NCBI GenBank assembly: GCA_947177185.1 | Contig: CAMWTJ010000015.1 | Span: forward strand, 1-37,928 | Origin: an uncultured Porphyromonadaceae bacterium | GTDB taxonomy: Bacteria; Bacteroidota; Bacteroidia; Bacteroidales; Muribaculaceae | Length of the DNA: 37,928 nt | Direction of reading: 5' to 3' | Shown: positions 22,916 to 37,928 of the stretch, piece by piece | How the letters are laid out: every line of letters begins with the position of its first letter | How positions within the stretch are numbered: position 1 is the stretch's first letter | Notes under the pieces: model-generated | Databases searched by the model: none | Told to the model about the DNA's origin: nothing | What the model saw: the letters and a program-made list of their open reading frames with translations, nothing else | Translations under genes and position numbers: made by a program

Positions 22916-25738
22916 TCAGTACCAGGTGATGCCGTTGGAGGTGGACGAGCGCTTGTCGTATTTGAGGTCGCTGAGCAGCGAGCTCTTGACGGCGATGTGG
23001 AAGTTGTAGCTCTTGTAGGGACCTACGGGCACGAAGCTGGCCGACATCTGGAAGCAGTGCAGGTCGCGCGAGATGTTGCAGTTCATGTAGGCCAGGCGGT
23101 GGGTGTCGAAGTTGTACGACGCCGAGAACGAGAAATTCCAGTTTTTGGTGGGGCGTATGCTGCCCGAGAAGCTCAGGTTCTGCGTGATGCGGCCGTCGTA
23201 CTCCATTTTCTGCTTGTTGAAGGCTCCGTAGGAGTAGTTGACGGAGTAGTTGACCGAGAGGCTCCAGGGCACCTCCCACTTGGCGTAGCCGTCGGCGCCC
23301 ATCTGCGTTTCGTCGTCGTCGCCGTGGCTGTGGCCCGAGCGGTTGGCCTGTCCCATGCCCTGTCCGTCGAAATTGTCGTCGTCGCCGGCGGCGTCGTCCT
23401 GCGAGTTGTTCTTGCCTTTTTTCTTGTCGTCTTTTTTGCGGCGGAAGGTGTCGTTGTTGAACGTGTAGCTGAACGATGTGCCGGTGTTGCGCAGGCGTCC
23501 GAGGCCTTTGCCGGAAGCGATGCGCAGCTTGTTCACGCGCACGGGGTTGCCGGCTTCGTTGAGCGCGTAGGTGTACACGTCCCACGTGGCGTTGAGGTTG
23601 AGGTTGAAGCCTTTTGTGAGTCGCAGCAGTATGGATGTGTTGATGTCGCTGAAGCGCAGCGAGTCGGCGGCCATGTTGTAGCTCTGCGATATGTTGAGGT
23701 TCTCAATGAGCGATATTTTCTTTTCGCCTATGGAGTCGTTGTCGGTCTTGACCTTCATTTCGAGGTTGTTGGCCAGGCTGTAGCTGATGGTTCCCGACTT
23801 GCCCTCGCTGGGCACTCCGAACAGTGCGTTCGGAAACATGGAGTATCGCCTGGTCTGCTGCTTGCCGGTGCGCGGGTCGGTGTAGTCGTACTGCCCGTAG
23901 TAGCCGAAAAACGGCGCTCCGAAGTCAGGTGCCGCGGAAAACGATATGGAGGGTGTCATCACGTGGCGTATCATCTTCACTTTCTTGCCGAGGAAACCCA
24001 GCGGCTGGAAGAAGCCGTAGAGCTTGGTGTCCATCGACACGCTGGCGCGCATGTCCCACACGTTGTAGAGGCTGTAGGTGGTGTCGCATATCTCCATGCC
24101 GGCCACGGGGTCCCACTGGCGGCGCACCTTGCGGGTGTACATGCGGTCCTGCAGGTCTATGGAGGGCGTGATGTTGACGTATTTCAGCACATTGAACGTG
24201 GCCGAGATTGGCACGCGGTGGTTCATGCCGTTTCGCCAGTCTTTTATGAGGCTTTTCTGGAAAAACTCGTTCTGCTTGGCAGTGAGCGAGTTCTGGAACT
24301 GTCCGTTGTAGCTGAGCTTGATTTTTTCGTACCAGCGCTCGGAGCCTGCCGCCTTCTTGCGCTTGAAAGGCTGTGTCTGGCTCATGGTGATGGTGAGGTT
24401 GGGGAAGCCCACGGTGAGGGTGGAGTCCTGCGTGCGCTGCGACACGTTCATGGTGGCCGAGAGGCTCCACTTCGACTGCGGGAAGCGGTAGGTCATGTTG
24501 ATGGTGGAGCTTTTCGTGCTCTCGGTGAAGGCGTTGGAGTAGTAGCTGTTGAGGTCGTTGCGGGTGTAGCCGCTGGTGGTGAAGTTGACCGACGCCGACA
24601 GACTCATGTTGGGGTTGGCCTTGGAGTCCTGCGAGTGGCTCCACAGCACCTGGAAATTCTTCTGCACGCCATAGTCGGGCGAGCCTTTCTCGCCGGTTTT
24701 CGTGAGCAGGTACGAGAGGTTGAAGTTGCCGCTGTACTTGTAGCGCTTGGCGTAGGTGCTGCGCGCGTTGAGTCCCCACGAGCCCTTGGTGTAGATTTCG
24801 CCGGTGAGCGCCAGGTCTATGTTGTCGCTGATGGCGAAATAGTAGCCGCCGTCGCGCAGGTAGAAGCCGCGGTTGTAGTCGTCGCCGAAGGTGGGCACGA
24901 TTATGCCCGAGGCATACTTGTCGGTGAAGGGAAAGTAGCCGAACGGCACAGCCAGCGGCAGCGGCAGGCCGGCGAGTACCATGTAGGCTGGTCCGACCAC
25001 TATGTTTTTGCCCGGTCGCACCTTGGCTTTTGTGAGCTGCAGGTAGAAGTGCGGGTCGTCGTGGTCGTCGCAGGTGGTGTAGCGTCCGTCCTTGATGTAG
25101 TAGCTGTCGTCCACGTCTTTTTTCGTGAGGCCGCCGGTGAGGTAGCCTTCGCCCTGCTGCGTGACAACGTTTGTGATCAGGCCTTTCGAGGTTTTGAAAT
25201 TGTAGCGCATGGTGGCGGCCTCATAGTCGGAGCCGCCTTCGTGAAACACGGGCGCTCCCTGCACGTCGCCCACGCTGTCGGTGCGTCCCACGGCATACAC
25301 GGTGTTGTCGCCCAGGTTCATTTCTATCTGCGCGGCGTCGAGCTTGATGTCGCCGTAGGTCACGGAGCCGTTGCCGTACATGAACGCCGAGTCGCGGCGC
25401 ACTATCACCATGGAGTCGCTCGACGAGAACACCACGGGGGCGTCGAGGTCCACCATCTCGCGCACTATGCGGCTGCGGCGGCTCGTGGTGTCGCGCGCCG
25501 TCAGCAGGGCTGCGGCGGCGGTGGCCGGCGTGATGCGGGGCGTGGTGTCGGCTGCAGCGGCTGTGTCGGCGGCGACGACGGCCGGCAGGCTGTCGGGCGC
25601 CACGCTGTCGGTGCTCGTCGCTATGGCTGCGGCGTGGAGTTCGTCGGCCTCGGCTGTAAGTGCGGCGTGCAGGCCCGTCGCGGGACCTGCTGCCATGGCG
25701 GCCATCAGACCGAATATGTAGCGGCGTTTAGTCTTCAA
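22916..25738 (-). CDS. lptD: LPS transport outer-membrane protein LptD, Bacteroidetes type
   Basis: LptD inserts lipopolysaccharide into the outer leaflet of the outer membrane. The 940-residue protein has a signal peptide, an Ala/Thr-rich linker, an OstA-like periplasmic domain (about 95-210; VTYGDIKLDAAQIEMNLGDN) and a long beta-barrel region with the family segment PFGYFPFTDKYASGIIVPTFG. It ends in an aromatic residue (Tyr), as outer-membrane proteins often do. A charged low-complexity insert rich in Lys, Asp and Asn sits near residues 765-825, probably in a loop. The start codon is TTG at 25738; it is the only one that gives a complete KTKRR-type signal peptide, the next ATG being 11 codons in. 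A -7 box lies 25 bp upstream. Confidence 0.92.
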   Translation of the reverse strand: MKTKRRYIFGLMAAMAAGPATGLHAALTAEADELHAAAIATSTDSVAPDSLPAVVAADTAAAADTTPRITPATAAAALLTARDTTSRRSRIVREMVDLDAPVVFSSSDSMVIVRRDSAFMYGNGSVTYGDIKLDAAQIEMNLGDNTVYAVGRTDSVGDVQGAPVFHEGGSDYEAATMRYNFKTSKGLITNVVTQQGEGYLTGGLTKKDVDDSYYIKDGRYTTCDDHDDPHFYLQLTKAKVRPGKNIVVGPAYMVLAGLPLPLAVPFGYFPFTDKYASGIIVPTFGDDYNRGFYLRDGGYYFAISDNIDLALTGEIYTKGSWGLNARSTYAKRYKYSGNFNLSYLLTKTGEKGSPDYGVQKNFQVLWSHSQDSKANPNMSLSASVNFTTSGYTRNDLNSYYSNAFTESTKSSTINMTYRFPQSKWSLSATMNVSQRTQDSTLTVGFPNLTITMSQTQPFKRKKAAGSERWYEKIKLSYNGQFQNSLTAKQNEFFQKSLIKDWRNGMNHRVPISATFNVLKYVNITPSIDLQDRMYTRKVRRQWDPVAGMEICDTTYSLYNVWDMRASVSMDTKLYGFFQPLGFLGKKVKMIRHVMTPSISFSAAPDFGAPFFGYYGQYDYTDPRTGKQQTRRYSMFPNALFGVPSEGKSGTISYSLANNLEMKVKTDNDSIGEKKISLIENLNISQSYNMAADSLRFSDINTSILLRLTKGFNLNLNATWDVYTYALNEAGNPVRVNKLRIASGKGLGRLRNTGTSFSYTFNNDTFRRKKDDKKKGKNNSQDDAAGDDDNFDGQGMGQANRSGHSHGDDDETQMGADGYAKWEVPWSLSVNYSVNYSYGAFNKQKMEYDGRITQNLSFSGSIRPTKNWNFSFSASYNFDTHRLAYMNCNISRDLHCFQMSASFVPVGPYKSYNFHIAVKSSLLSDLKYDKRSSTSNGITWY

Positions 25739-25917: not shown

Positions 25918-26592
25918 CTACTGCTCTATGTAGGGCAGCAGGGCGTCGCGCCATATGGCGTAGCCGGGGGCCAGCAGGTGCAGGCCGTCGTTGGTGAGGT
26001 CGGCGCGCAGGCGTCCTTCGTCGTCGGCGAAGAGCGGGTGCAGGTCGATCCATGTGGCGCCAGCGCTTTCCACGATGGGGCGCAGCAGGCGGTTGACGTC
26101 GCGCACGGTCTGCTCCTTGCCGGCTATGGCCTTGTAGCGGCCGAAGGTGTTGTTGATGGGCAGAAGCGACTGCACGTACAGGCGTGTGGAGGGTGTGGCC
26201 GTGCGTATCTCGGCTATGAGGGCGCCGAGTGCGGAGGCTATGGAGTCGGCCGTAAGGTCGTGGCTGATGTCGTTGACGCCGCACAGCAGGAATATCTTCG
26301 CCGGGCGCCCGGCCGTGATGGCCGGCAGGCGGTCGTGCAGGCCGCCTATGATGTCGCCGTTGATGCCGCGGTTCACCACGCGGGGGTTGCCGAACAGTTC
26401 GTGCCACTCGCATCCGTGTGTGAGGCTGTTGCCGAGCATCACGATGGATGTGCTGTCGGTGCCGAGCATCTCGAACAGCGACGCGCGCTGTCCCCACAGC
26501 TCGTTGTGCGGGGCCGCGCTGCACCCGCATCCGCATCCGTGTGCCACGGCAGTGAGCAGTGTGGCTGTGGCTGCTGCCGCGAGCTTATTCAT
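25918..26592 (-). CDS. SGNH/GDSL-family hydrolase
   Basis: The 224-residue protein shows the four SGNH blocks: Ser in MLGNSLTHG (S56), Gly in GINGDIIGG, Asn in GVNDIS (N107), and the Asp/His pair in DGLHLLAPG (D202, H205). Members hydrolyse esters, often acetyl groups on sugars. The N-terminus is hydrophobic and holds Cys20, Cys22 and Cys24; export is likely, and a lipoprotein is possible although AHGC is a poor lipobox. It overlaps murQ by 8 bp and is the last gene of the cluster, so a role in deacetylating peptidoglycan fragments is a fair guess but unproven. Confidence 0.87.
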   Translation of the reverse strand: MNKLAAAATATLLTAVAHGCGCGCSAAPHNELWGQRASLFEMLGTDSTSIVMLGNSLTHGCEWHELFGNPRVVNRGINGDIIGGLHDRLPAITAGRPAKIFLLCGVNDISHDLTADSIASALGALIAEIRTATPSTRLYVQSLLPINNTFGRYKAIAGKEQTVRDVNRLLRPIVESAGATWIDLHPLFADDEGRLRADLTNDGLHLLAPGYAIWRDALLPYIEQ

Positions 26593-27406
26593 GTCCCTCG
26601 CGATAGGTGTCGACGGCTTTCTTGACGGAGCCGTGCATGAGCAGCAGGCGTTTGGCCTCGTCGTAGGGCAGGCCGAGCTCCTCGACCACCATGCGCGTGC
26701 CGCGGTCCACGAGCTTGGCGTTGCTGAGCTGCATGTTCACCATCTTGTTGCCTTTGACGCGTCCCATCTTGATCATCACGGATGTGGTGATCATGTTGCA
26801 TATCATCTTCTGGCCTGTGCCGCTCTTCATGCGCGAGCTGCCGGTGACGTATTCCGGGCCCACAATCATTTCGATGGCGATGTCGGCGGCGGCGCTTACG
26901 GGTGCGTCGGGGTTGGAGGTGATGGCGGCGGTGAGTATGCCGTGGCGGCGGCACTCTTCGAGCGCGCCTATCACGTAGGGCGTGGTGCCGGAGGCGGCGA
27001 TGCCTATGACGGTGTCGCGCTCGTTGATTCCGAAGGCCTCAAGGTCGCGCCATCCCTGTGCGGTGTCGTCCTCGGCGTTTTCGATAGGGTTGCGCAGGGC
27101 TTTGTCGCCGCCGGCTATGATGCCTATCACCCACGAGGGGTCCATGCCGAATGTGGGAGGTATTTCGGAGGCGTCGAGCACGCCGAGGCGTCCCGAGGTG
27201 CCGGCTCCCATGTAGAAGATGCGTCCGCCGCGCTTCATGCGCGTCACGATGCCTTCCACGAGCTGCTCTATCTGCGGGATGGCCTTTTCGACGGCGAGGG
27301 CCACTTTCTTGTCTTCGTTGTTGATGTCGTGCAGCAGTTCGCCGACGCTTTTCTTTTCGAGGTCGTTGTAGAGAGAGGGTTGTTCGGAAATCTTTACGAA
27401 AGCCAT
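26585..27406 (-). CDS. murQ: N-acetylmuramic acid 6-phosphate etherase MurQ
   Basis: MurQ cleaves the lactyl ether of MurNAc-6-phosphate, giving GlcNAc-6-phosphate and D-lactate in the cytoplasm. The 273-residue protein has the SIS-domain core with MGAGTSGRLGVLDASEIPPTFG split across residues 66-87, where E81 matches the catalytic Glu, and NAEDD (E112) for the second acidic residue. SSRMKSGTGQKMICNMITT is the other family signature. Length is slightly shorter than E. coli MurQ (298), with the loss at the C-terminus. It follows the kinase gene by 19 bp and overlaps the SGNH hydrolase by 8 bp. The order murT-murK-murQ matches the operon described in Tannerella forsythia. Confidence 0.96.
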   Translation of the reverse strand: MAFVKISEQPSLYNDLEKKSVGELLHDINNEDKKVALAVEKAIPQIEQLVEGIVTRMKRGGRIFYMGAGTSGRLGVLDASEIPPTFGMDPSWVIGIIAGGDKALRNPIENAEDDTAQGWRDLEAFGINERDTVIGIAASGTTPYVIGALEECRRHGILTAAITSNPDAPVSAAADIAIEMIVGPEYVTGSSRMKSGTGQKMICNMITTSVMIKMGRVKGNKMVNMQLSNAKLVDRGTRMVVEELGLPYDEAKRLLLMHGSVKKAVDTYREGHE

Positions 27407-27425
27407 AGTATCTGGGATTGCTGGT

Positions 27426-28271
27426 TTAGGAGTGGAACTGTATGAGTCCTTCCATGGGACTCTTGAGTATGGTGCCTACGGTGAAGCCCGTGGCGGCTGC
27501 GGCGTCGGCGAGCACGTCGCGGTAGTAGTGGGCTATCGAGCCCACAAAGTGGGCGCAGGGCTCGCACATGCCGGCGTAGCGGCTGACGTTGCGGCGGAAG
27601 AAGGCTTCGAACGAGCTCTGCACGAGCGCGCGCACCTCGGCGCGGTCTATGTTTTCGATGAGGAAGGGTGTGACCGACGCCAGGAAGCGGTTGGGCTGCG
27701 GCTCCTTGTACACGCGGCGTATGATGTCGAGCAGCGTGAGGTCGTACTGGTGCAGGAATTTCTCGCAGAGGTCGGCGGGCAGCTGTGCCTTGAGCACGTC
27801 GCCCACGAGCAGCTTGCCGAGCACGGCGCCCGAGCCTTCGTCGCCGAGTATGAAGCCCAGGGGCGACACGTTCATGGCTATGGCCGAGCCGTCGTAGTAG
27901 CACGAGTTGGAGCCGGTGCCGAGTATGCACGCTATGCCCGGACGGCGGCCGCACAGGGCGCGCGCGGCGGCGAGCAGGTCGGTGTGCACCTCGACGGTGC
28001 CGGCCGAGGGTATGTTGGCGCTTATGGCGCGCGCCACATTGCCGCACACTTCGGGCGAGATGCATCCCGCGCCGTAGAAGTAGACGGCTTCGATGCCGGC
28101 GGCGCGTTCGCCGAGTTCGGGCACGAGTTCGGCGGCGATGCGTGTGCGCATCTCCTCCTCGGTGAGCATTACGGCGTTCATGCCGCAGGTGAACACTTGT
28201 TTTTCAACTTTTCCGTTGCGGACGACGCACCAGTCCACTTTGGTGCTTCCGCAGTCTGCTATAAGTATCAT
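27426..28271 (-). CDS. murK: BadF/BadG-type amino-sugar kinase, probable MurNAc kinase MurK
   Basis: This 281-residue cytoplasmic kinase has the phosphate-binding DCGSTK at the N-terminus (6-11), a probable catalytic Asp in VHTDLLAAARAL (D98), GTGSN (118-122) and a second phosphate loop GDEGSG. The family includes N-acetylglucosamine kinases and the MurNAc/GlcNAc kinase MurK of Clostridium and Tannerella. Lying between murT and murQ, it most likely makes MurNAc-6-phosphate for MurQ, though it may also take GlcNAc. Its start overlaps the murT stop by 4 bp (ATGA). Family is certain; the preferred sugar is inferred from context. Confidence 0.88.
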   Translation of the reverse strand: MILIADCGSTKVDWCVVRNGKVEKQVFTCGMNAVMLTEEEMRTRIAAELVPELGERAAGIEAVYFYGAGCISPEVCGNVARAISANIPSAGTVEVHTDLLAAARALCGRRPGIACILGTGSNSCYYDGSAIAMNVSPLGFILGDEGSGAVLGKLLVGDVLKAQLPADLCEKFLHQYDLTLLDIIRRVYKEPQPNRFLASVTPFLIENIDRAEVRALVQSSFEAFFRRNVSRYAGMCEPCAHFVGSIAHYYRDVLADAAAATGFTVGTILKSPMEGLIQFHS

Positions 28272-29432
28272 ATCTTGATGTAAATTTTCTTTTTATAGAG
28301 TATGTAGCCGAACACCCAGTTGAAGGCCACGAAGGCCAGGGCGAAGAGCAGCGACGCGAGCGTGGCGTCGTCGCCGGCCATGGGCATGCACACGGCGCGG
28401 TATATCCAGCCTTTAAGACTTATGCTGCCGGCCTCGGCGGCGGCGTAGGGCACGCGTATGAAGCCCATGAGTATGGTGAGCACGGCGCCCAGGCAGTACA
28501 TGAACAGCGGGTTGACGCCGAAAGCCTCGAAGAAGCGGCACCAGCGCCTGTGGCCGCGGATGTCGATAATCCATATGAGCAGGCCCAGCAGGCTGGCGGC
28601 CATGCCGCAGGTGGTGAGCACAAACGTGGGCGACCATATTTTCTTGTTGACGGGTATGCCGTAGGCCAGCAGAAGGCCGCTGAAGGTGAGCACGGAGCCG
28701 ACTATGAACAGGCGGCATATGCGCTCACGGTTGTCGGCCACGGCCATGAGCATGCTTCCGCACAGGAAGCCTATGAGCATGTGGGCCACGGAGGGTATGG
28801 TGCTGAGCAGCCCCTCGGGGTCGAAATGCAGCGTGACGCCGCCCACGGTGTCGGAGTACATGTGGTTTTCGCCGAGCACGGCGCGGTCGGCGGCCGCTAT
28901 GATGTTGCGCTCGCTGAACTCCAGGCCGTGGCCCAGCAGCAGCACGGCGGCGTAGGCCACAAGGATGCCGGCCACGGTGCGTGCCAGCGCGCGGCGGCCC
29001 ATCGACAGCGCCAGCAGCGAGCCTGCGCCGTAGCACAGCGCCAGGCGCGGCATCACGCCGAGCATGCGTATGTGGTCGAAATTGACGGCGGCCTCCACTA
29101 TGCCGCCGCCGGCGGCCAGGCGCCGCAGCGTGAGCGACAGCCACGCTATGGCCAGGCCTATGAGGAATATCACGGCCGTGCGCCGCAGAATCTTCAGGGC
29201 GGCCGCGCGGCTCATGCGGAAATCGTAGCGCCGCAGCGACATGTACGTGCTCACGCCCATGATGAACATGAAGAAGGGAAACACCAGGTCGGTGGGTGTC
29301 AGGCCGTGCCACTGCGCGTGTGCCAGCGGGGTGTAGATGTGGCCCCACGACCCGGGGTTGTTGACCATGATCATGCCGGCCACGGTGATGCCGCGCAGTA
29401 TGTCGAGGGCGAGCAGGCGCCCTTGTTTGGGT

Positions 29433-29443
<11 letters not shown>
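28268..29443 (-). CDS. murT: MurT-like / DUF5009-HGSNAT-family membrane protein, candidate MurNAc transporter
   Basis: The 391-residue inner-membrane protein has about ten to eleven helices and the DUF5009/HGSNAT signature HAQWHGLTPTDLVFPFF (from H42). In Tannerella forsythia the gene at this position in murTKQ was reported as a MurNAc importer; I assign MurT by that context and resemblance from memory. The family also includes the human lysosomal enzyme that acetylates glucosamine across a membrane, and the probable catalytic His of that motif is kept here (H42). It could therefore be a transporter, a transmembrane acyltransferase, or both. It overlaps the D-lactate dehydrogenase-like gene by 11 bp and the kinase by 4 bp, showing tight coupling. 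Confidence 0.8.
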
Positions 29444-32276
<2,833 letters not shown>

Positions 32277-32300
32277 AGGTTGATTCGGTTTAGAGCCCGC

Positions 32301-32326
32301 CCCCCGATGTTTGTCAGAATCGGGGG
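32301..32326 (-). other. Hairpin in the leader of the D-lactate dehydrogenase gene
   Basis: CCCCCGAT (32301-32308) pairs perfectly with ATCGGGGG (32319-32326) around a ten-base loop, 24 bp before the ATG at 32276. This 101-bp gap is the largest within the salvage cluster. With no T-run after the stem it may be an attenuator or an mRNA processing/stability element rather than a full stop. Confidence 0.45.
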
Positions 32327-32377
32327 TCGGAAGGCTTTTTTCAGTTTATGAATTTGAAAATATTATAACCGGTTTTA

Positions 32378-33607
32378 TTAGTCGTAAAGCTTGTAGGGCG
32401 CGGACGCGGCGCGGAAGGGCTCCACGTCCTTGTTCCAGTAGGGGAGCATGTCGGCCACGCGGTGGCACGGTGTGAACAGGCGGCGTATCTGTTTGCTGCC
32501 CACCACCTTGTCGAACATATCGAAGCGCTTGGCGGCGTCCTCGGCGTCCATCACGCGGCGGTCGGGATACATGTCGGCCAGCTCCTGGAGCACGTAGAAC
32601 TGCACCAGCGTCAGCGGCGCGGCCTGCGCGTCGGTCACGTATATCTCCACGCCCTGCAGGTTCTCGCCCTTGCCGGTGCCGTAGAAAGGCTTGATGTGGA
32701 TGGGGCGGAACATCACGCCCGGGATGTGCAGGGCGTTGAGCCGGCGGTTGAGCTCGGCTGCGTCGATCCAGTCGGCGGCCACGAGCTTGAACGGCAGCGT
32801 GTAGCCCACGCCGATGCTCACATAGTACAGCTCGCCCAGGATGCCTGTGGCCGGATAGTACAGCGCCGATTCGGCGTTGGGTTGGTGTGGCGAGGGCAGC
32901 ACCCACGGCATGCCCGTGTCGGCGAAGCTCATGGAGCGCTTGTAGCCCTCCATGGGCACTACGGTGAGGTTTACGCGCTTGTCGCCGAGCAGTCCCTCGC
33001 CGTCGAGGTAGCGGGCGAGCTCGCCGGGTGTGAGGCCGTACAGATAGGGGATGGGAAACTGGCTTACGAACGAGAAGCAGCTGTCCTCCACCACGCATCC
33101 CTCCACCTTGTCGGCGCCCGCGGGGTTGGGGCGGTCGAGCACCACGAATTCCTTGCCCAGCTCGGCGCATGCCTGCATGGCCAGGCCCATGGTGGAGATG
33201 AAGGTGAACGAGCGGCAGCCGTTGTCCTGGATGTCGTACACGAGCACATCCACGCTGTCGAGCATCTCGGGGGTGGGCTTGCGGTACTTGCCGTAGATGC
33301 TGTAGACGGGCACGCCCGTGGCGGCGTCGACGGCGTTGCCCACGTGGTCGCCGGCGTGCACGTCGCCGCGCACGCCGTGTTCGGGTCCGTACAGTGCCGT
33401 CAGGCGCACGCCGGGGGCCTCGTGCAGTATGTCGATGGTGCTGCGCAGCGTGTTGTCCACGCCAGACGGATTGGTTATCAGGCCCACGCGCTTGCCTTGC
33501 AGGATGTCGAAGCCGCGGTCGCGCAGCACTTCCACTCCGGGTTTTACCTGCGCCGTGGCGCCGACGGCGATGGCCGCCGCTGCCAGTATTGATAACGCAC
33601 GTTTCAT
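32378..33607 (-). CDS. namZ: Exo-beta-N-acetylmuramidase NamZ-like (DUF1343, GH171)
   Basis: NamZ enzymes remove single MurNAc units from the non-reducing end of peptidoglycan glycan fragments. The 409-residue protein has a signal peptide (MKRALSILAAAAIAVGATA) with no lipobox, so a periplasmic place is likely. Family marks are LITNPSGVD, the probable catalytic region YGPEHGVRG (E76), VLDRPNPAGADKVEG, PIPYLYGLTPGELARY and GVGYTLPFKLVAADWID. Length fits. Its start overlaps the AmpG-like gene by 4 bp (ATGA). In this cluster it would supply free MurNAc to the MurT-like protein. The activity is known for the family; it is inferred here. Confidence 0.93.
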   Translation of the reverse strand: MKRALSILAAAAIAVGATAQVKPGVEVLRDRGFDILQGKRVGLITNPSGVDNTLRSTIDILHEAPGVRLTALYGPEHGVRGDVHAGDHVGNAVDAATGVPVYSIYGKYRKPTPEMLDSVDVLVYDIQDNGCRSFTFISTMGLAMQACAELGKEFVVLDRPNPAGADKVEGCVVEDSCFSFVSQFPIPYLYGLTPGELARYLDGEGLLGDKRVNLTVVPMEGYKRSMSFADTGMPWVLPSPHQPNAESALYYPATGILGELYYVSIGVGYTLPFKLVAADWIDAAELNRRLNALHIPGVMFRPIHIKPFYGTGKGENLQGVEIYVTDAQAAPLTLVQFYVLQELADMYPDRRVMDAEDAAKRFDMFDKVVGSKQIRRLFTPCHRVADMLPYWNKDVEPFRAASAPYKLYD

Positions 33608-35502
33608 TTCTTTTCTATTTTACGTCCGAAATTAGGGTCTATTTTAAGGAAGGCGCACACGCCGATGGTGGCGGCGCAGCATATCATGGTCCACACGAAG
33701 AAATGCCGGTAGCCGATGGTTTCCTGCAGCCAGCCGGCGGCCATGCCGGGCAGCATCATGCCCAGGGCCATGAAGCCGGTGCAGATGGCGTAGTGGGCGG
33801 TCTTGTGCTCGCCTTCGCTGAAGTAGATCAGATACAGCATGTAGGCCGTGAAGCCGAAGCCGTAGCCGAACTGCTCTATGAACACGCAGGCGTTGATGGT
33901 GAGCAGCGAGTGCGTGGGCCAGTAGCTCAGATACACAAACGTCAGGCACGTGAGCGACATGCTCCAGGCCATGGGCCACAGCCATTTCCTGAGGCCGCCG
34001 CGCGCAGCCACGATGCCGCCCACGATGCCGCCTATGGTGAGGCCGATGATGCCCACGGTGCCGTAGACAAAGCCCACCTCGCCGGTGCTCAGGCCGAGGC
34101 CGCCCTTGTCGATGGGGTCGAGCAGAAACGGATTTATGAGTTTCACCAGCTGGGCTTCGGGCAGGCGGTATAGAAGCATGAACGCCACCGCCACCCATAT
34201 CTGCTTCTTGGCGAAGAAGCTGCGGAAGGTTTCGAAAAACTCGCGGAAGATGTCGGCCGACGTGCGCGCGGCGCCGTGCTCGCGGCTGTCCGACGCCGGA
34301 CGCGGCAGCGCCCAGCTGTGGTACATGGCCACTGCCAGGAAGAACGCCGACAGCACCGCAAACACCACGAGCCATGCCATGGGTATGTTGCCGCTCGCGC
34401 CGTCGAAGCCGGCTGTCGCGGGCTGCTTGATTTTGTGGTCTATGTCGTAGTAGAGCCACGCCGTGCGGTCCCAGTTGTGCTCGTCGAACACCAGGCGCTC
34501 GCCCTCTGCGAGCTTGATGCCGGCGTCGCCCGACGTGTGCGTCACGTTCAGCACCACGCTTTCGCCGGGCGCCGGGCGCTTGGTCAGGCGCACGCCGCGG
34601 ATGGCGAACGTGTTGCTCGCGGCCTCGGCGGCAGCCTCGCGCTTCTCGCCGAAGGTTTCGGCCACCCAGCGCGTGAAGGCGCCGGGGCCTTCGTCGGCCT
34701 TGGCGGCGGCGGTGGCTGTGCCCGCGGCGGGAGCGGCAGCGGCCACGAAGCCGTTGCGCTCGTTGCTGCGGCGCACGCTGTCGCGCATCATGGCGGCGTA
34801 GGCGGCGAACGTCATCGGCTCGCCGTCCACCTCCACAATGGCCGGAGCCTTGACGGCCGTAGCTGCGGCTTCGCTGCCGGTGAAGAAATTCATCTCGGCC
34901 GGTTCGGCGGGATTCTGCAGGGCGAGGTCGGCCATCACGGGCGCCTCCCAGGCCACATAGGGGTCGACGTCGACTCCTAACTTCACGGCGTCGAGGCCGG
35001 TGCCCGTTTCGATGGCGCCTGCGAGCACCACCAGCAGGCCCTGGCCCACCACGGTGCTCACGCGGTAGAACGTGGAGCGGATGCCCACGTACAGCGACTG
35101 CTCATGCTCCGTCAGGGCCAGCATGTAGAAGCCGTCGGCGGCTATGTCGTGCGTGGCCGATGTGAAGCCCACGAGCCAGAATATGGCCAGCGTGAGCTGG
35201 AAGAAGAAGGGCGTCGGGATGCTGAACGCTATCCCCGCCAGGGCGAAGGCTATGATCCACTGCATGGTGAGTGTCCACCAGCGCTTGGTGCGGATAATGT
35301 CAACGAACGGGCTCCAGAAGGGTTTTATCACCCACGGCAGATACAGCCACCCCGTGTAGAGGGCTATGTCGGTGTTGGAAATACCCAGGCGCTTGTACAT
35401 TATCACCGATATGGTCATCACGGCCACATACGGCAGGCCCTGCGCGAAATAGAGCGTCGGAATCCACGCCCATGGCGAGCGCTTCGTGCTTGCGTCAGAC
35501 AT
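33604..35502 (-). CDS. AmpG-like MFS permease with a 200-residue periplasmic insert
   Basis: The 632-residue membrane protein starts with PTLYFAQGLPYVAVMTISVIM-like residues typical of AmpG, the importer of anhydromuropeptides, and has about twelve helices. It is longer than usual AmpG (around 490 in E. coli) because of a segment from about residue 166 to 373 between helices 5 and 6. By normal MFS topology this faces the periplasm. The insert has an Ala-rich helical part (about 250-298) and a beta-rich part (about 300-355). It starts 6 bp after the SpoIID-like gene and overlaps namZ by 4 bp. The substrate is inferred to be a muropeptide or related fragment from family and neighbours. Confidence 0.87.
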   Translation of the reverse strand: MSDASTKRSPWAWIPTLYFAQGLPYVAVMTISVIMYKRLGISNTDIALYTGWLYLPWVIKPFWSPFVDIIRTKRWWTLTMQWIIAFALAGIAFSIPTPFFFQLTLAIFWLVGFTSATHDIAADGFYMLALTEHEQSLYVGIRSTFYRVSTVVGQGLLVVLAGAIETGTGLDAVKLGVDVDPYVAWEAPVMADLALQNPAEPAEMNFFTGSEAAATAVKAPAIVEVDGEPMTFAAYAAMMRDSVRRSNERNGFVAAAAPAAGTATAAAKADEGPGAFTRWVAETFGEKREAAAEAASNTFAIRGVRLTKRPAPGESVVLNVTHTSGDAGIKLAEGERLVFDEHNWDRTAWLYYDIDHKIKQPATAGFDGASGNIPMAWLVVFAVLSAFFLAVAMYHSWALPRPASDSREHGAARTSADIFREFFETFRSFFAKKQIWVAVAFMLLYRLPEAQLVKLINPFLLDPIDKGGLGLSTGEVGFVYGTVGIIGLTIGGIVGGIVAARGGLRKWLWPMAWSMSLTCLTFVYLSYWPTHSLLTINACVFIEQFGYGFGFTAYMLYLIYFSEGEHKTAHYAICTGFMALGMMLPGMAAGWLQETIGYRHFFVWTMICCAATIGVCAFLKIDPNFGRKIEKK

Positions 35503-35508
35503 CTGTTG

Positions 35509-36825
35509 CTATGCTTTGTTGTTGATTGATTCGTATTCTTTGAGTTCGGCGCCGGGGAAGTAGTGCGCCAGTATCTGCTGCCACGTGTAGCCCTTTTCGG
35601 CCATCACGGCGGCGCCTATCTGGCACAGGCCCACGCCGTGGCCCCAGCCGGCGCCCCGCAGCACGAAGTCGTCGCCTTCGCGGTCCACCACGAAGGCCGA
35701 CGAGCGCAGGTGGCTGGTGCTCAGCGCATGGCGTATCTCAAGCTCCTTGCCTATGATCATGGTGCGGCGGGTGCCCGTGATGCGCAGGCGCACGATGCGG
35801 CCCGAGGTGCCGCGTTCCACGGCCGTCAGGTCGGTGATGCGGCCGAAGTCTATGCCTATGCGTTCGCGCACCAGCGCGCTCAGCTCGTCGGTGCTGTAGC
35901 GCACGGTCCAGCGGAAGAAGTCGAGGCTCTCGCGGTCGTAGCCGTTGAGCACCTGCGAGAGCACGCGTTCGTCGGCAGTGTTGCAGAAGGCTTCGGGCGA
36001 CGCCTCAATCCACGCACGCGCGCGGGGCTCGTAGCGCAGGTCGGGATACACCAGCGAGTCGGGGGCGTCGCTGCGCACCGTCAGATAGCTGTGGTGCACG
36101 GGTTCCCAGCAGTTCTCGAACAGCTCGAACACGCCGCCGCAGCACTTGCTGAAGCGTGCGTCGGCCAGTTCGCCGGTTTCGGGGTCCACGAGCACCACTC
36201 CGGCCGTGGCGGCCACAGCCTCGGCCACGGCGGCCGTGGTCTGGCGCGCCTTGCCCTGGTAGCGCTGGCAGTGGTCGTCGGCGCACACGTCGAAGTCGCT
36301 GTGGTCCTCGCGGTCCTGCCAGCGCACTATCTCGCCTTCGGTCACGGTGCACGCCTCGTAGGCGCTGCCGCCGGCCTCGATGCGGCGGTTCTTGCGTATC
36401 TGCGCCAGCAGCCAGCTGCGCGATATCACCGAGTGGGCGCGCAGCAGGTCGGGCGAGCTCATGGCGCTCATCTCCGACGATATCACGCTCAGCAGATAGT
36501 CTTCCACGCCGATGCGGTTTATCACCGTGATGCCGCCGTCGGCCGCGGCTTTCAGCGTCAGCGCGCCGTCGAACGTCTGGTTCTCGCGGCGTTCCCAGTG
36601 GAAGTCGACGCCGATGGTCACATCTTTCACCTCGAACACGGCGCCTTCGGCGGCGGGTTCGAAATCGAGCGCCCCGCAGGGCAGAGCGTCGAAATGCATC
36701 AGGCCGCTCACTTCGGTGCCGTCGCTGCAGCGGAAAGCACCGTGAAACTCTATGTCTACGGCCGAGGCGGTAAGTATGCCTACGGCTACGGTAGCGTATG
36801 GTTTTTTATCGCACATTTTCAGCAA
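35509..36825 (-). CDS. SpoIID/LytB domain protein, apparently cytoplasmic
   Basis: SpoIID proteins are lytic transglycosylases that cut peptidoglycan to 1,6-anhydroMurNAc ends. This 438-residue homolog keeps the core VEDYLLSVISSEMSAM with the probable catalytic Glu (E118), followed by LLRAHSVISRSWLLAQ, and has the later GAGWGHGVGLCQIGA signature. A CCGGVFE segment in the middle is shared with other Bacteroidetes members as I remember them. No signal peptide is visible: the domain begins right after about ten polar residues. The start (36825, or ATG at 36816) overlaps the DUF4922 gene. The absence of an export signal is odd for a murein enzyme and hints at action on imported fragments. Confidence 0.88.
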   Translation of the reverse strand: MLKMCDKKPYATVAVGILTASAVDIEFHGAFRCSDGTEVSGLMHFDALPCGALDFEPAAEGAVFEVKDVTIGVDFHWERRENQTFDGALTLKAAADGGITVINRIGVEDYLLSVISSEMSAMSSPDLLRAHSVISRSWLLAQIRKNRRIEAGGSAYEACTVTEGEIVRWQDREDHSDFDVCADDHCQRYQGKARQTTAAVAEAVAATAGVVLVDPETGELADARFSKCCGGVFELFENCWEPVHHSYLTVRSDAPDSLVYPDLRYEPRARAWIEASPEAFCNTADERVLSQVLNGYDRESLDFFRWTVRYSTDELSALVRERIGIDFGRITDLTAVERGTSGRIVRLRITGTRRTMIIGKELEIRHALSTSHLRSSAFVVDREGDDFVLRGAGWGHGVGLCQIGAAVMAEKGYTWQQILAHYFPGAELKEYESINNKA

Positions 36826-37738
36826 TATTTTTTATTTCTACGTCGTTGAGGCACAGCTCGTCGAACACGCGCCGCAGCAGGGCCTCGTCTATGCGTCCGA
36901 AATCCTCGGCGCGGGGAGTTATGAACGCGCCGCCCATGTCCACACTGGCCGGGCTGAGCAGCATGGCGCCGGGGCCTTCCGTGCCGTAGAACGACGGACG
37001 GTGGCGCTTGCGGGGCACCACCACCAGCCGCACGCCGCCGGCCGTGGCGTAGGCCAGCAGGTTGAGCATGGGCTCCTCGCCGGTGTCGGGCATCGGAAGC
37101 GCCGCATACAGGCGGTCGAACATGCGCGCGCCGGCCTCGGCATCGGCCGAGTCGACCACGAACACCTTCAGCGGCAGCTCCGCGGCCACGCGCAGCGTGG
37201 TGCCGTCGGGCTCCGCGGCCACTACCTGCATGGCAGCGCCCTCGAGCGCGGCGGGCAGTGTCAGGAAATCGGTGTTGCCGGCCTGGAAATGCATGTGGTC
37301 GGGGGCCGAGGCGCCGCAGCGCGGGCCGTTGTAGAACACCGTGTAGCCCTTCAGCGCCATGGCCAGGCGCAGCATGTGGGCCATGCGGCCGGCTATGCGC
37401 TGCGGCGTGTGCTCGAGCGCAGGGATGGTGAAATGGCGCGGAAATATGGGAAACGGATTCACCAGCACCGTGTAGCCTTCCCACTCGATGCCGCGCTGCT
37501 CGGCGGGGCGGTTGGCCTCGCACAGGAAGCACGGACGCTCGGCCAGCGAGCGGGCGTCGACCTTGGCGCCGCTCGACACTATGCGGGCGGGGTTGAACTG
37601 CACCTTCAGCGTCCAGCCGGGCATGGCCACCTCGCGCAGCTCTACCGAGCGCAGGGCGTCGAAATTGCGAGCGGCCAGCGGCCACTCCGCGCACTGGCTC
37701 TCAAGCAGGCGCTCTATCTGTTCGGAGTCTAATGCCAT
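36806..37738 (-). CDS. DUF4922 protein, HIT-superfamily nucleotidyltransferase-like
   Basis: The 310-residue protein matches DUF4922. It contains HMHFQ (H148, H150, Q152), which fits the H-phi-H-phi-Q pattern of the GalT/Apa2 branch of the HIT superfamily, whose members transfer nucleotides to phosphate or sugar phosphates. RPCFLCEANRP near residues 68-78 has a Cys pair also seen in such enzymes. No signal peptide is visible, so it is cytoplasmic. It overlaps the SpoIID-like gene by 20 bp and starts 10 bp after the partial gene upstream. A role as a nucleotide-sugar phosphorylase or ATP adenylyltransferase is possible; the substrate is unknown. Confidence 0.8.
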   Translation of the reverse strand: MALDSEQIERLLESQCAEWPLAARNFDALRSVELREVAMPGWTLKVQFNPARIVSSGAKVDARSLAERPCFLCEANRPAEQRGIEWEGYTVLVNPFPIFPRHFTIPALEHTPQRIAGRMAHMLRLAMALKGYTVFYNGPRCGASAPDHMHFQAGNTDFLTLPAALEGAAMQVVAAEPDGTTLRVAAELPLKVFVVDSADAEAGARMFDRLYAALPMPDTGEEPMLNLLAYATAGGVRLVVVPRKRHRPSFYGTEGPGAMLLSPASVDMGGAFITPRAEDFGRIDEALLRRVFDELCLNDVEIKNIAENVR

Positions 37739-37748
37739 GGCGTAGCGT

Positions 37749-37928
37749 TCAGTTGCGGTTTTTGTTCTCGCGGATGCGCGCCAGCAGTTCCCAGGTGCGG
37801 ATGCGGTCTTTGTAGAGGTTGTTGGCGTTCATCTTGTTGATGTCGAGCGCGGCGTCGCTGTTGTCCTCCCAGCGGCGGCAGAAGTAGAGCACATCATAGA
37901 TGCGGCCTATCTGGTTGTGGCGCGAGAA
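37749..37928 (-). CDS. C-terminal end of an unidentified protein (cut by the window edge)
   Basis: An open frame enters from the right edge and ends at a TGA (37749-37751). The last 59 residues include IGRIYDVLYFCRRWEDNSD and end in RENKNRN. The frame has no internal stop and lies 10 bp before the DUF4922 start, so it is very probably the real upstream gene of the cluster. I do not recognise the family from this fragment. Confidence 0.75.
   Translation of the reverse strand, partial: FSRHNQIGRIYDVLYFCRRWEDNSDAALDINKMNANNLYKDRIRTWELLARIRENKNRN

Follow-up and report, generated by a model that had tools for sequence, protein, structure and literature searches.

A probable Bacteroidales variant of the Tannerella forsythia murein-salvage operon and its association with the loss of MurA and MurB

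The window analysed here is a stretch of 37,928 nucleotides from the draft genome of an uncultured bacterium of the Muribaculaceae (order Bacteroidales; assembly GCA_947177185.1, contig CAMWTJ010000015.1). Positions 25918–37928 contain a run of ten genes based upon murT, murK and murQ. The run is in our judgement quite likely a Bacteroidales variant of the murein-salvage operon of Tannerella forsythia, to which genes for a D-lactate dehydrogenase-like enzyme (D-LDH) and an SGNH hydrolase have been added. The type of operon is already known, and this is not a wholly new system. Its probable function, like that of the T. forsythia operon, is to provide N-acetylmuramic acid (MurNAc) to hosts predicted to be auxotrophic for it. 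The absence of MurA and MurB, which is invisible within the window, likely shifts its role from the provision of extra carbon to the supply of an essential precursor.

Organization of the gene cluster

The predicted proteins were searched with Pfam, TIGR/equivalog and PDB profiles. Nine complete open reading frames (ORFs) and one partial form a tight, co-directed run on the minus strand, as follows.

25918..26592, minus strand: SGNH/GDSL hydrolase, possibly an O-acetylesterase acting on sugars; by eye the N-terminus resembles that of a lipoprotein (Pfam PF13472)
26585..27406, minus strand: MurQ, MurNAc-6-phosphate etherase (TIGR00274, 306.3 bits, cut-off 302)
27426..28271, minus strand: MurK, MurNAc kinase (PDB matches; Pfam BadF match below cut-off)
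28268..29443, minus strand: MurT, HGSNAT/NagX-type (HGSNAT/DUF5009) membrane protein, MurNAc uptake (identity to T. forsythia MurT; HGSNAT profile match)
29433..32276, minus strand: D-lactate dehydrogenase-like FAD/iron-sulphur enzyme (PF01565, FAD_binding_4; PF02913, FAD-oxidase_C; Fer4; CCG)
32378..33607, minus strand: NamZ exo-beta-N-acetylmuramidase, signal peptide by eye (PF07075, 2.3e-80; PF20732, 2.6e-36; PDB 4k05, 5e-162)
33604..35502, minus strand: AmpG-type muropeptide permease of the major facilitator superfamily (MFS), long form (TIGR00901, 2.1e-47, below the curated cut-off)
35509..36825, minus strand: SpoIID/LytB-domain enzyme (TIGR02669, 152 bits, cut-off 83.3)
36806..37738, minus strand: DUF4922 protein, probable GalT/Ap4A-phosphorylase-like enzyme (PF16269, 7.9e-64)
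37749..37928, minus strand: C-terminus of a family 2 glycosyltransferase (GT2), cut by the contig end (identity to the gene ends of relatives; a full relative matches PF00535)

The families and the close spacing given in a preliminary description, made from the sequence of the window, agree with the ORFs and the domain searches. Eight of the nine junctions overlap or are no longer than 19 bp, the exception being the 101 bp between NamZ and D-LDH. From the SGNH gene to the partial gene the values are −8, 19, −4, −11, 101, −4, 6, −11 and 10 bp, with the SpoIID gene started at its first ATG (36816); a TTG start lies at 36825. Contig C15 stops at base 37928, truncating the tenth gene to the last 59 amino acids of the GT2, 61–88% identical to the corresponding part of the GT2 wherever the gene was found in other loci. 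The run is not due to chance, its order recurring in genomes of the host's family, in Bacteroides and in Tannerella.

Comparison with known systems

The T. forsythia genes Tanf_08345–08385 are described as xanthan lyase–gtf–gtf–lytB–ampG–ybbC–murT–murK–murQ, nine genes on one transcript by reverse transcription PCR and under GppX control (PMC5388701). In strain ATCC 43037 the locus is found on NZ_JUET01000082, the contig named in that paper, and encodes in order a Golvesin_C protein, GT2, DUF4922, SpoIID, AmpG, NamZ, MurT, MurK and MurQ. Matched by position, the second gtf of the published description corresponds to DUF4922, and ybbC to NamZ. Eight of the ten window genes (GT2 to MurQ) are present there in the same order, the seven that are complete in the window having 43–76% identity in the best matched part. 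The murT–murK–murQ genes are adjacent and co-directed in both, and the upstream gtf–gtf(DUF4922)–lytB–ampG–ybbC block is also found in the window, with its GT2 partial. The comparison ends at the GT2; the Golvesin_C head gene lies beyond the end of the window's contig. The loci differ in that no D-LDH or SGNH match occurs in the 20.8-kb T. forsythia locus, and in the length of AmpG (433 amino acids in T. forsythia, 632 in the window). With the same families in the same order, the proposal of a peptidoglycan-salvage operon centred upon murT–murK–murQ is upheld. Its designation as an extended version applies to D-LDH and SGNH, the rest being part of the published T. forsythia operon.

A Bacteroides-type cluster (B. 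salyersiae L112, B. nordii L170 and Mediterranea L122) shares all ten families with the window, D-LDH among them, and also their order. It differs in B. salyersiae, where a PBP4B-like serine hydrolase carries the SGNH as its C-terminal domain in a fusion protein. This fusion (L112:11708-13546; the hydrolase part is below the model cut-off) follows MurQ, the position of the SGNH gene in the window. In the Escherichia coli murQP–yfeW cluster PBP4B/yfeW, a hydrolase of the beta-lactamase fold, is likewise beside MurQ. The ybb cluster of Bacillus subtilis (murQ-R-P, amiE, nagZ, namZ) follows a NamZ/MurQ logic like that of the window. Both the ybb and murQP clusters use MurP, a phosphotransferase system, for uptake, and are not known to contain MurT/MurK, AmpG, GT2 or DUF4922. 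The open-licence literature, as far as its titles and abstracts go, yielded no report of D-LDH together with MurQ in Bacteroides. Nor was a report found, in the accessible parts of that literature (PMC11382707 and PMC10947601 included), of the addition of D-LDH and repeated loss of MurA and MurB with it.

Absence of MurA and MurB

MurA and MurB are usually regarded as indispensable steps, and MurA is the target of fosfomycin. In the host draft genome (G000, 90.94% complete) a profile search for MurA gave no match, the same model matching all 14 control genomes and exceeding the cut-off in 10 of them, and a search of the same draft for MurB also gave none. Across 59 genomes of the family, MurA gave some match in 42 and exceeded the cut-off in 36; the weak matches are far below the cut-off, as we would expect of the related AroA. 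None of the 23 genomes without MurA over cut-off has a MurB match, and both are therefore absent from 23 of the 59. MurB alone is absent from G201 and G222 (86% and 82% complete); in G198 it is a fragment, and in G233 it scores just under the cut-off. Within the genus of the host, G227 and G247 (both 99% complete) have neither MurA nor MurB, and G200 (99%) has both.

A MurC-type match is present in all 59 genomes. It exceeds the curated cut-off in 13; G000 is below (296 vs 335 bits), as most other genomes are by a small margin, MurA-positive ones included. MurC is nearly full-length in 21 of the 23 genomes lacking MurA and MurB, with fragments in G223 and G244; outside the 23, G211 and G222 are without a full-length match. 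The pathway check in G000 covered these three enzymes, with MurC present and the other two undetected.

The loss is closely associated with the D-LDH cluster. A D-LDH homologue at 1e-30 occurs in 35 of the 59 genomes, and 33 of these are counted as having the cluster; in G231 and G245 the copies are 36–38% identical and lie outside any cluster in the fetched stretch. MurA and MurB are missing from 23 of the 33, vs none of the other 26 (Fisher 8.9e-9, kinship ignored). For genomes at least 97% complete the corresponding numbers are 9 of 16 and 0 of 23 (p 5.4e-5, kinship likewise ignored). The 26 are the 24 genomes without a homologue at this threshold plus G231 and G245; the MurK locus was read in six of them and the distant D-LDH copy in two.

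The first tree of D-LDH (33 genomes) requires seven changes of the MurA/MurB label. A rebuilt tree, omitting G244 (partly out of frame) and G240 (partial), requires six, and branches with good support force all six; an equally low number came from 17 of 500 shuffles. On this gene tree, in which G000 and G208 have an unusual letter composition, the MurA/MurB state has changed at least six times, as a rough figure, and some changes may be gains instead of losses. In G244 the D-LDH gene (G244:C164:14430-17245, L097) is split over two frames, either a broken gene or an assembly error.

From these data we infer that the host is a predicted MurNAc auxotroph. T. forsythia is described as having no MurA, MurB or predicted AnmK (PMC7670621), and no other MurNAc auxotroph was found in the accessible parts of the open-licence literature. 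A number of observations weigh against the dependence of the host upon imported MurNAc. The genome of G000 is incomplete, and a gap in its assembly could account for the failure to find MurA and MurB there; the case for auxotrophy rests on relatives, G227 and G247. The pattern in the relatives weakens the explanation by a gap. Of the 34 family genomes in which MurB gave a match, 22 have it directly beside MurA, and because the genes are so often adjacent their joint absence is one observation, not two. The Fisher tests take no account of kinship. Ten of the 33 cluster genomes retain MurA, and the cluster therefore does not imply auxotrophy. Two of the six MurK loci that were read, those of G207 and G199, contain parts of the cluster from which D-LDH, MurT and MurQ are missing; both genomes have MurA. 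Rows from Bacteroides and Paludibacter fall among those of the family in both D-LDH trees (midpoint root), so the tree is that of a gene and not of species, and the number of losses is approximate. MurQ destroys MurNAc, which an auxotroph must ration. Lastly, formation of UDP-MurNAc in the T. forsythia model needs AmgK/MurU (PMC7670621); in the present host the route from MurNAc to UDP-MurNAc is putative.

An alternative is a purely catabolic operon, using the peptidoglycan of neighbours for carbon and nitrogen, in hosts whose MurA and MurB either have merely escaped assembly or have unrelated substitutes. MurQ and D-LDH serve degradation, the MurA-retaining cluster genomes fit such a role, and a single gap in G000 could hide two genes that are often adjacent. 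However, 23 genomes lack both, nine of these being 97% complete or more, as against none of the 26 without the D-LDH cluster; together with the retention of MurC, this makes the explanation unlikely. Supply of MurNAc to an auxotrophic host through a salvage operon is the explanation we prefer, and taken as a whole it is probably correct.

Conservation among relatives

Named loci were found with the T. forsythia MurK sequence, using the best 80 of 132 confirmed matches; 46 were kept for counts, and 34 were dropped for too little flank or no MurK label. The comparison of neighbourhoods suggested in the preliminary description shows that the non-mur genes are conserved beside murTKQ, all ten families being present in 11 of the 46 loci with enough flank. 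MurT is found in 26 of the 46, accompanied by MurQ and AmpG in all 26, by NamZ in 25 and by D-LDH in 18. D-LDH lies within 9.9 kb of MurK in 21 of the 46, and 20 of those 21 have MurQ. In seven loci MurK and MurQ are the only members of the ten families.

Five arrangements of D-LDH occur among the 80 named loci. It is placed before MurT, mostly after NamZ; as AmpG–D-LDH–MurK (L137, L140, L144); as D-LDH–MurK (L118); as MurK–D-LDH (L147); or divergently beside a kinase (L155, L156, L165–L168). This variety therefore argues for a working link with the cluster, beyond mere inheritance. In the family, MurT adjoins D-LDH in 30 of 32 fetched loci, the contig ending in the other two (G240, G243). The SGNH gene is less constant, being found in 15 of 40 family loci.

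An order-level sample of 198 genomes was also used, of which 45, chosen for strong MurK matches, were searched for DUF4922; 17 order loci were read for gene order. Alignment rows were prefiltered by length and coverage, and near-copies were left out (L107, L108, L124 and L134 from 34 MurT rows; L107, L108 and L140 from 28 DUF4922 rows).

MurT and its likeness to acetyltransferases

In T. forsythia the gene that separates ybbC/namZ from murK belongs to the family of the window MurT, with 59% identity in the alignment and 55% in the matched part, in keeping with the assignment originally proposed. A profile of 31 MurT proteins matches HGSNAT at 1.6e-29. Nine residues named at the acetyl-CoA and catalytic site of HGSNAT (N258, H269, D279, R344, E471, R239, D244, R247 and R317; PMC11357348) have MurT counterparts that are invariant in all 31, the mapping having been counted along the printed alignment with an offset of 28. 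Thus MurT N28 and H42 align with N286 and H297 of the PDB chain, that is HGSNAT N258 (the acetyl-CoA-binding asparagine) and H269 (the catalytic histidine). Most of the HGSNAT acetyltransferase site is retained in MurT. It is not a NagX equivalog, the window and T. forsythia proteins scoring 121–122 bits against a cut-off of 480. One account assigns TfMurT to the sodium symporter superfamily and, in another passage, to the MFS (PMC5790795). Misassignment of the window gene on these grounds was ruled out by the T. forsythia locus, which has the same HGSNAT-like family between NamZ and MurK.

MurT might then be not, or not only, a transporter, and could act as a transmembrane acetyltransferase, re-acetylating de-N-acetylated cell-wall sugars with cytoplasmic acetyl-CoA. 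The nine invariant residues would support this, and such a role has been proposed for NagX, with TfMurT noted as a distant relative (PMC9007349). Against it, the transport role of T. forsythia MurT is retold in PMC5388701 and PMC5790795. Moreover HGSNAT H586, E587 and E363 are not kept in MurT, D469 and K491 are only loosely so (the window protein has serine at the position of K491), and K634 is outside the alignment. Reportedly, T. forsythia MurT together with MurK restored growth on MurNAc to E. coli transport mutants (Ruscitto, 2016). On balance we consider an acetyltransferase role possible but doubtful.

MurK, NamZ, AmpG and SpoIID

The window kinase scores 316 bits with T. forsythia MurK in the PDB (8oqw/8ow9) and 211 bits with K1058 (8oqk/8ow7), the top score being that of the uncharacterised 1zxo (345 bits). 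Once these entries had been identified, from PMC10465942 (which prints 8QQ where the PDB has 8OQ), a K1058-like kinase was ruled out. The MurNAc-binding residues named in the same paper (T94, D95, N119, S133-P134-L135 and D141) are all kept in the window protein, by eye in the alignment. A second MurK/K1058-type kinase, 41% identical to that of the window, is encoded elsewhere in the host (G000:C4:45153-45977, L047). K1058 is described as lying upstream in T. forsythia (PMC10465942), and of 40 loci in the family 8 have a MurK/K1058-type gene directly upstream of the cluster head gene, with reversed orientation in one case. The host also has a second NamZ, 35% identical, at a separate locus (C80:1-3918, L035), followed by a sodium/solute symporter and a gene resembling a WYL-type regulator by eye.

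The AmpG of the window is a long form with about 190 extra residues in the alignment, an insert that faces the periplasm by our reading of the helices. Short (415–531 amino acids) and long (588–661) forms can be distinguished, the extra residues being in one loop; of 79 fetched loci 25 have the long form, and the two forms are intermingled both in the family and in Bacteroides. T. forsythia AmpG is described as necessary for growth on peptidoglycan fragments and as importing GlcNAc-MurNAc and GlcNAc-anhMurNAc, where GlcNAc is N-acetylglucosamine and anhMurNAc is anhydroMurNAc (PMC7670621). Recycling of anhydromuropeptides in E. coli is based upon AmpG and AnmK. In the host AmpG is present, and no AnmK was found in the 90.94% of the genome that is available; AnmK occurs in 3 of the 59 family genomes. 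Entry of anhydroMurNAc is thus without its known kinase, as in T. forsythia. Nor is there an evident peptide handler in the cluster, and the earlier suggestion that anhydromuropeptides are used and all products consumed is doubtful.

In SpoIID the SSEM motif contains E118, which is invariant in 27 of 27 proteins and which we take to be the catalytic glutamate. No signal peptide is seen by eye in the window protein or in most of 26 relatives, whose starts were chosen by script, and the enzyme may therefore act on imported fragments.

The D-LDH-like enzyme and the SGNH hydrolase

The best PDB match of the D-LDH-like protein is 8jdc, ‘Probable D-lactate dehydrogenase, mitochondrial’ (1.3e-29), followed by a glycolate oxidase (3e-29). 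It has the features of the family, namely FAD_binding_4 and FAD-oxidase_C domains, the His-His-Glu-His set, a C-terminal 4Fe-4S domain and CCG. The set comprises H423, H430, E468 and H469, presumably the metal-binding and catalytic residues, and is invariant in 27 of 27 proteins. We infer that this FAD/Fe-S dehydrogenase burns the D-lactate derived from MurQ. The matches to glycolate oxidase, and to D-2-hydroxyglutarate dehydrogenase as well, count against this assignment.

For the SGNH hydrolase the best PDB matches are 7pzg, ‘Lysophospholipase L1’ (3.5e-58), and 6njc, ‘Sialate O-acetylesterase | Lysophospholipase L1’ (8.6e-58). Because one of the two is named a sialate O-acetylesterase, the protein possibly removes O-acetyl groups. 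MurK needs a free C6 hydroxyl, with which such a removal would fit.

DUF4922, GT2 and the head gene

A profile of 26 DUF4922 proteins matches Ap4A phosphorylase 2 at 7.8e-6. All 26 match Ap4A_phos_N, with E values of up to 5 and a best of 8.8e-7; the window protein alone gives 0.048, below the cut-off. C70 and C73 (CxxC) and H148, H150 and Q152 (HxHxQ) are invariant in all 26, and we liken the HxHxQ motif to that of GalT. Assignment to the DUF4922 superfamily has been made for some GDP-galactose phosphorylase proteins of plants (PMC11047344, PMC9871823). DUF4922 is thus probably similar to the sugar-nucleotide or dinucleotide phosphorylases, of the GalT/Ap4A-phosphorylase kind. Searches of the Golvesin_C head gene with Pfam and PDB profiles gave only Golvesin_C and weak titin/fibronectin-type matches; at a guess, it resembles an Amidase_3 with an insert.

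The GT2, DUF4922 and SpoIID genes could be passengers that serve surface glycans and not salvage. A GT2 is unusual in salvage. DUF4922 occurs in 27 of the 45 order genomes, and at least 16 of these have it no more than 10 kb from a MurK-type kinase among those listed; in the other 11 no listed kinase is so near, ten having it on another contig and one 37 kb away, and many of the assemblies are fragmented. The upstream half of the cluster (Golvesin_C, GT2, DUF4922, SpoIID and AmpG) is also not in the fetched stretch of three of the ten MurA-positive cluster genomes (G198, G200 and G239). However, it is whole in all 18 fetched MurA/MurB-lacking relatives that have more than 11 kb upstream of D-LDH, the other four being cut there by contig ends, and in T. 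forsythia the upstream genes are co-transcribed with murTKQ (PMC5388701). We therefore regard passengers as a minority possibility.

The remainder of the window

Judged from first residues only, the rest of the window (67–25705) seems to contain Suf-type genes for iron-sulphur clusters, genes resembling those of SecA and of P-type ATPases, two membrane proteins similar to acyltransferases and, at 22916–25705, an LptD-like gene. The window has a GC content of 64%, and between 24000 and 37928 long antisense ORFs overlie many genes, on both strands; these are taken for artefacts of composition. Antisense ORFs displaced true genes in gene calls, and tblastn was therefore used for the counts in relatives.

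Proposed mechanism

In the mechanism that we favour, NamZ would take terminal MurNAc off foreign glycan outside the inner membrane, where the SGNH lipoprotein possibly strips O-acetyl groups. MurT would import MurNAc, and AmpG disaccharides or muropeptides. In T. forsythia MurK makes MurNAc-6-phosphate, which MurQ splits into GlcNAc-6-phosphate and D-lactate (PMC5790795), and the same cytoplasmic reactions are expected here. The added FAD/Fe-S enzyme may oxidise the D-lactate to pyruvate. Because MurA and MurB are undetected while MurC is kept, the imported MurNAc would also have to feed UDP-MurNAc, the operon standing in for de novo synthesis. What the present analysis itself demonstrates is which genes are there, their order and conservation, the retained residues and the distribution of MurA and MurB. 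The functions of AmpG and MurK, the single transcript and the auxotrophy of T. forsythia are the results of others (PMC5388701, PMC7670621, PMC5790795).

A much more far-reaching proposal can be formulated. In this the cluster fully replaces de novo synthesis of UDP-MurNAc, several lineages of the family having become obligate cell-wall scavengers independently, without MurA and MurB; the GalT-like DUF4922 protein and the GT2 perform a new sugar-nucleotide step, such as an exchange of UDP-MurNAc or UDP-GlcNAc; and MurT couples uptake to acetyl-CoA-dependent acetylation. As a joint claim this seems decidedly improbable.

Significance

Two unexplained genes, MurT with its acetyltransferase-like site and DUF4922, would be placed by the favoured mechanism in a defined pathway. 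In this sample loss of MurA and MurB is found only in genomes carrying the operon. If the losses are real and repeated, cross-feeding of cell-wall precursors would be common in one family of the Bacteroidales. This might be why certain members are difficult to culture, and what is now a curiosity of an oral bacterium would become a general rule open to test.

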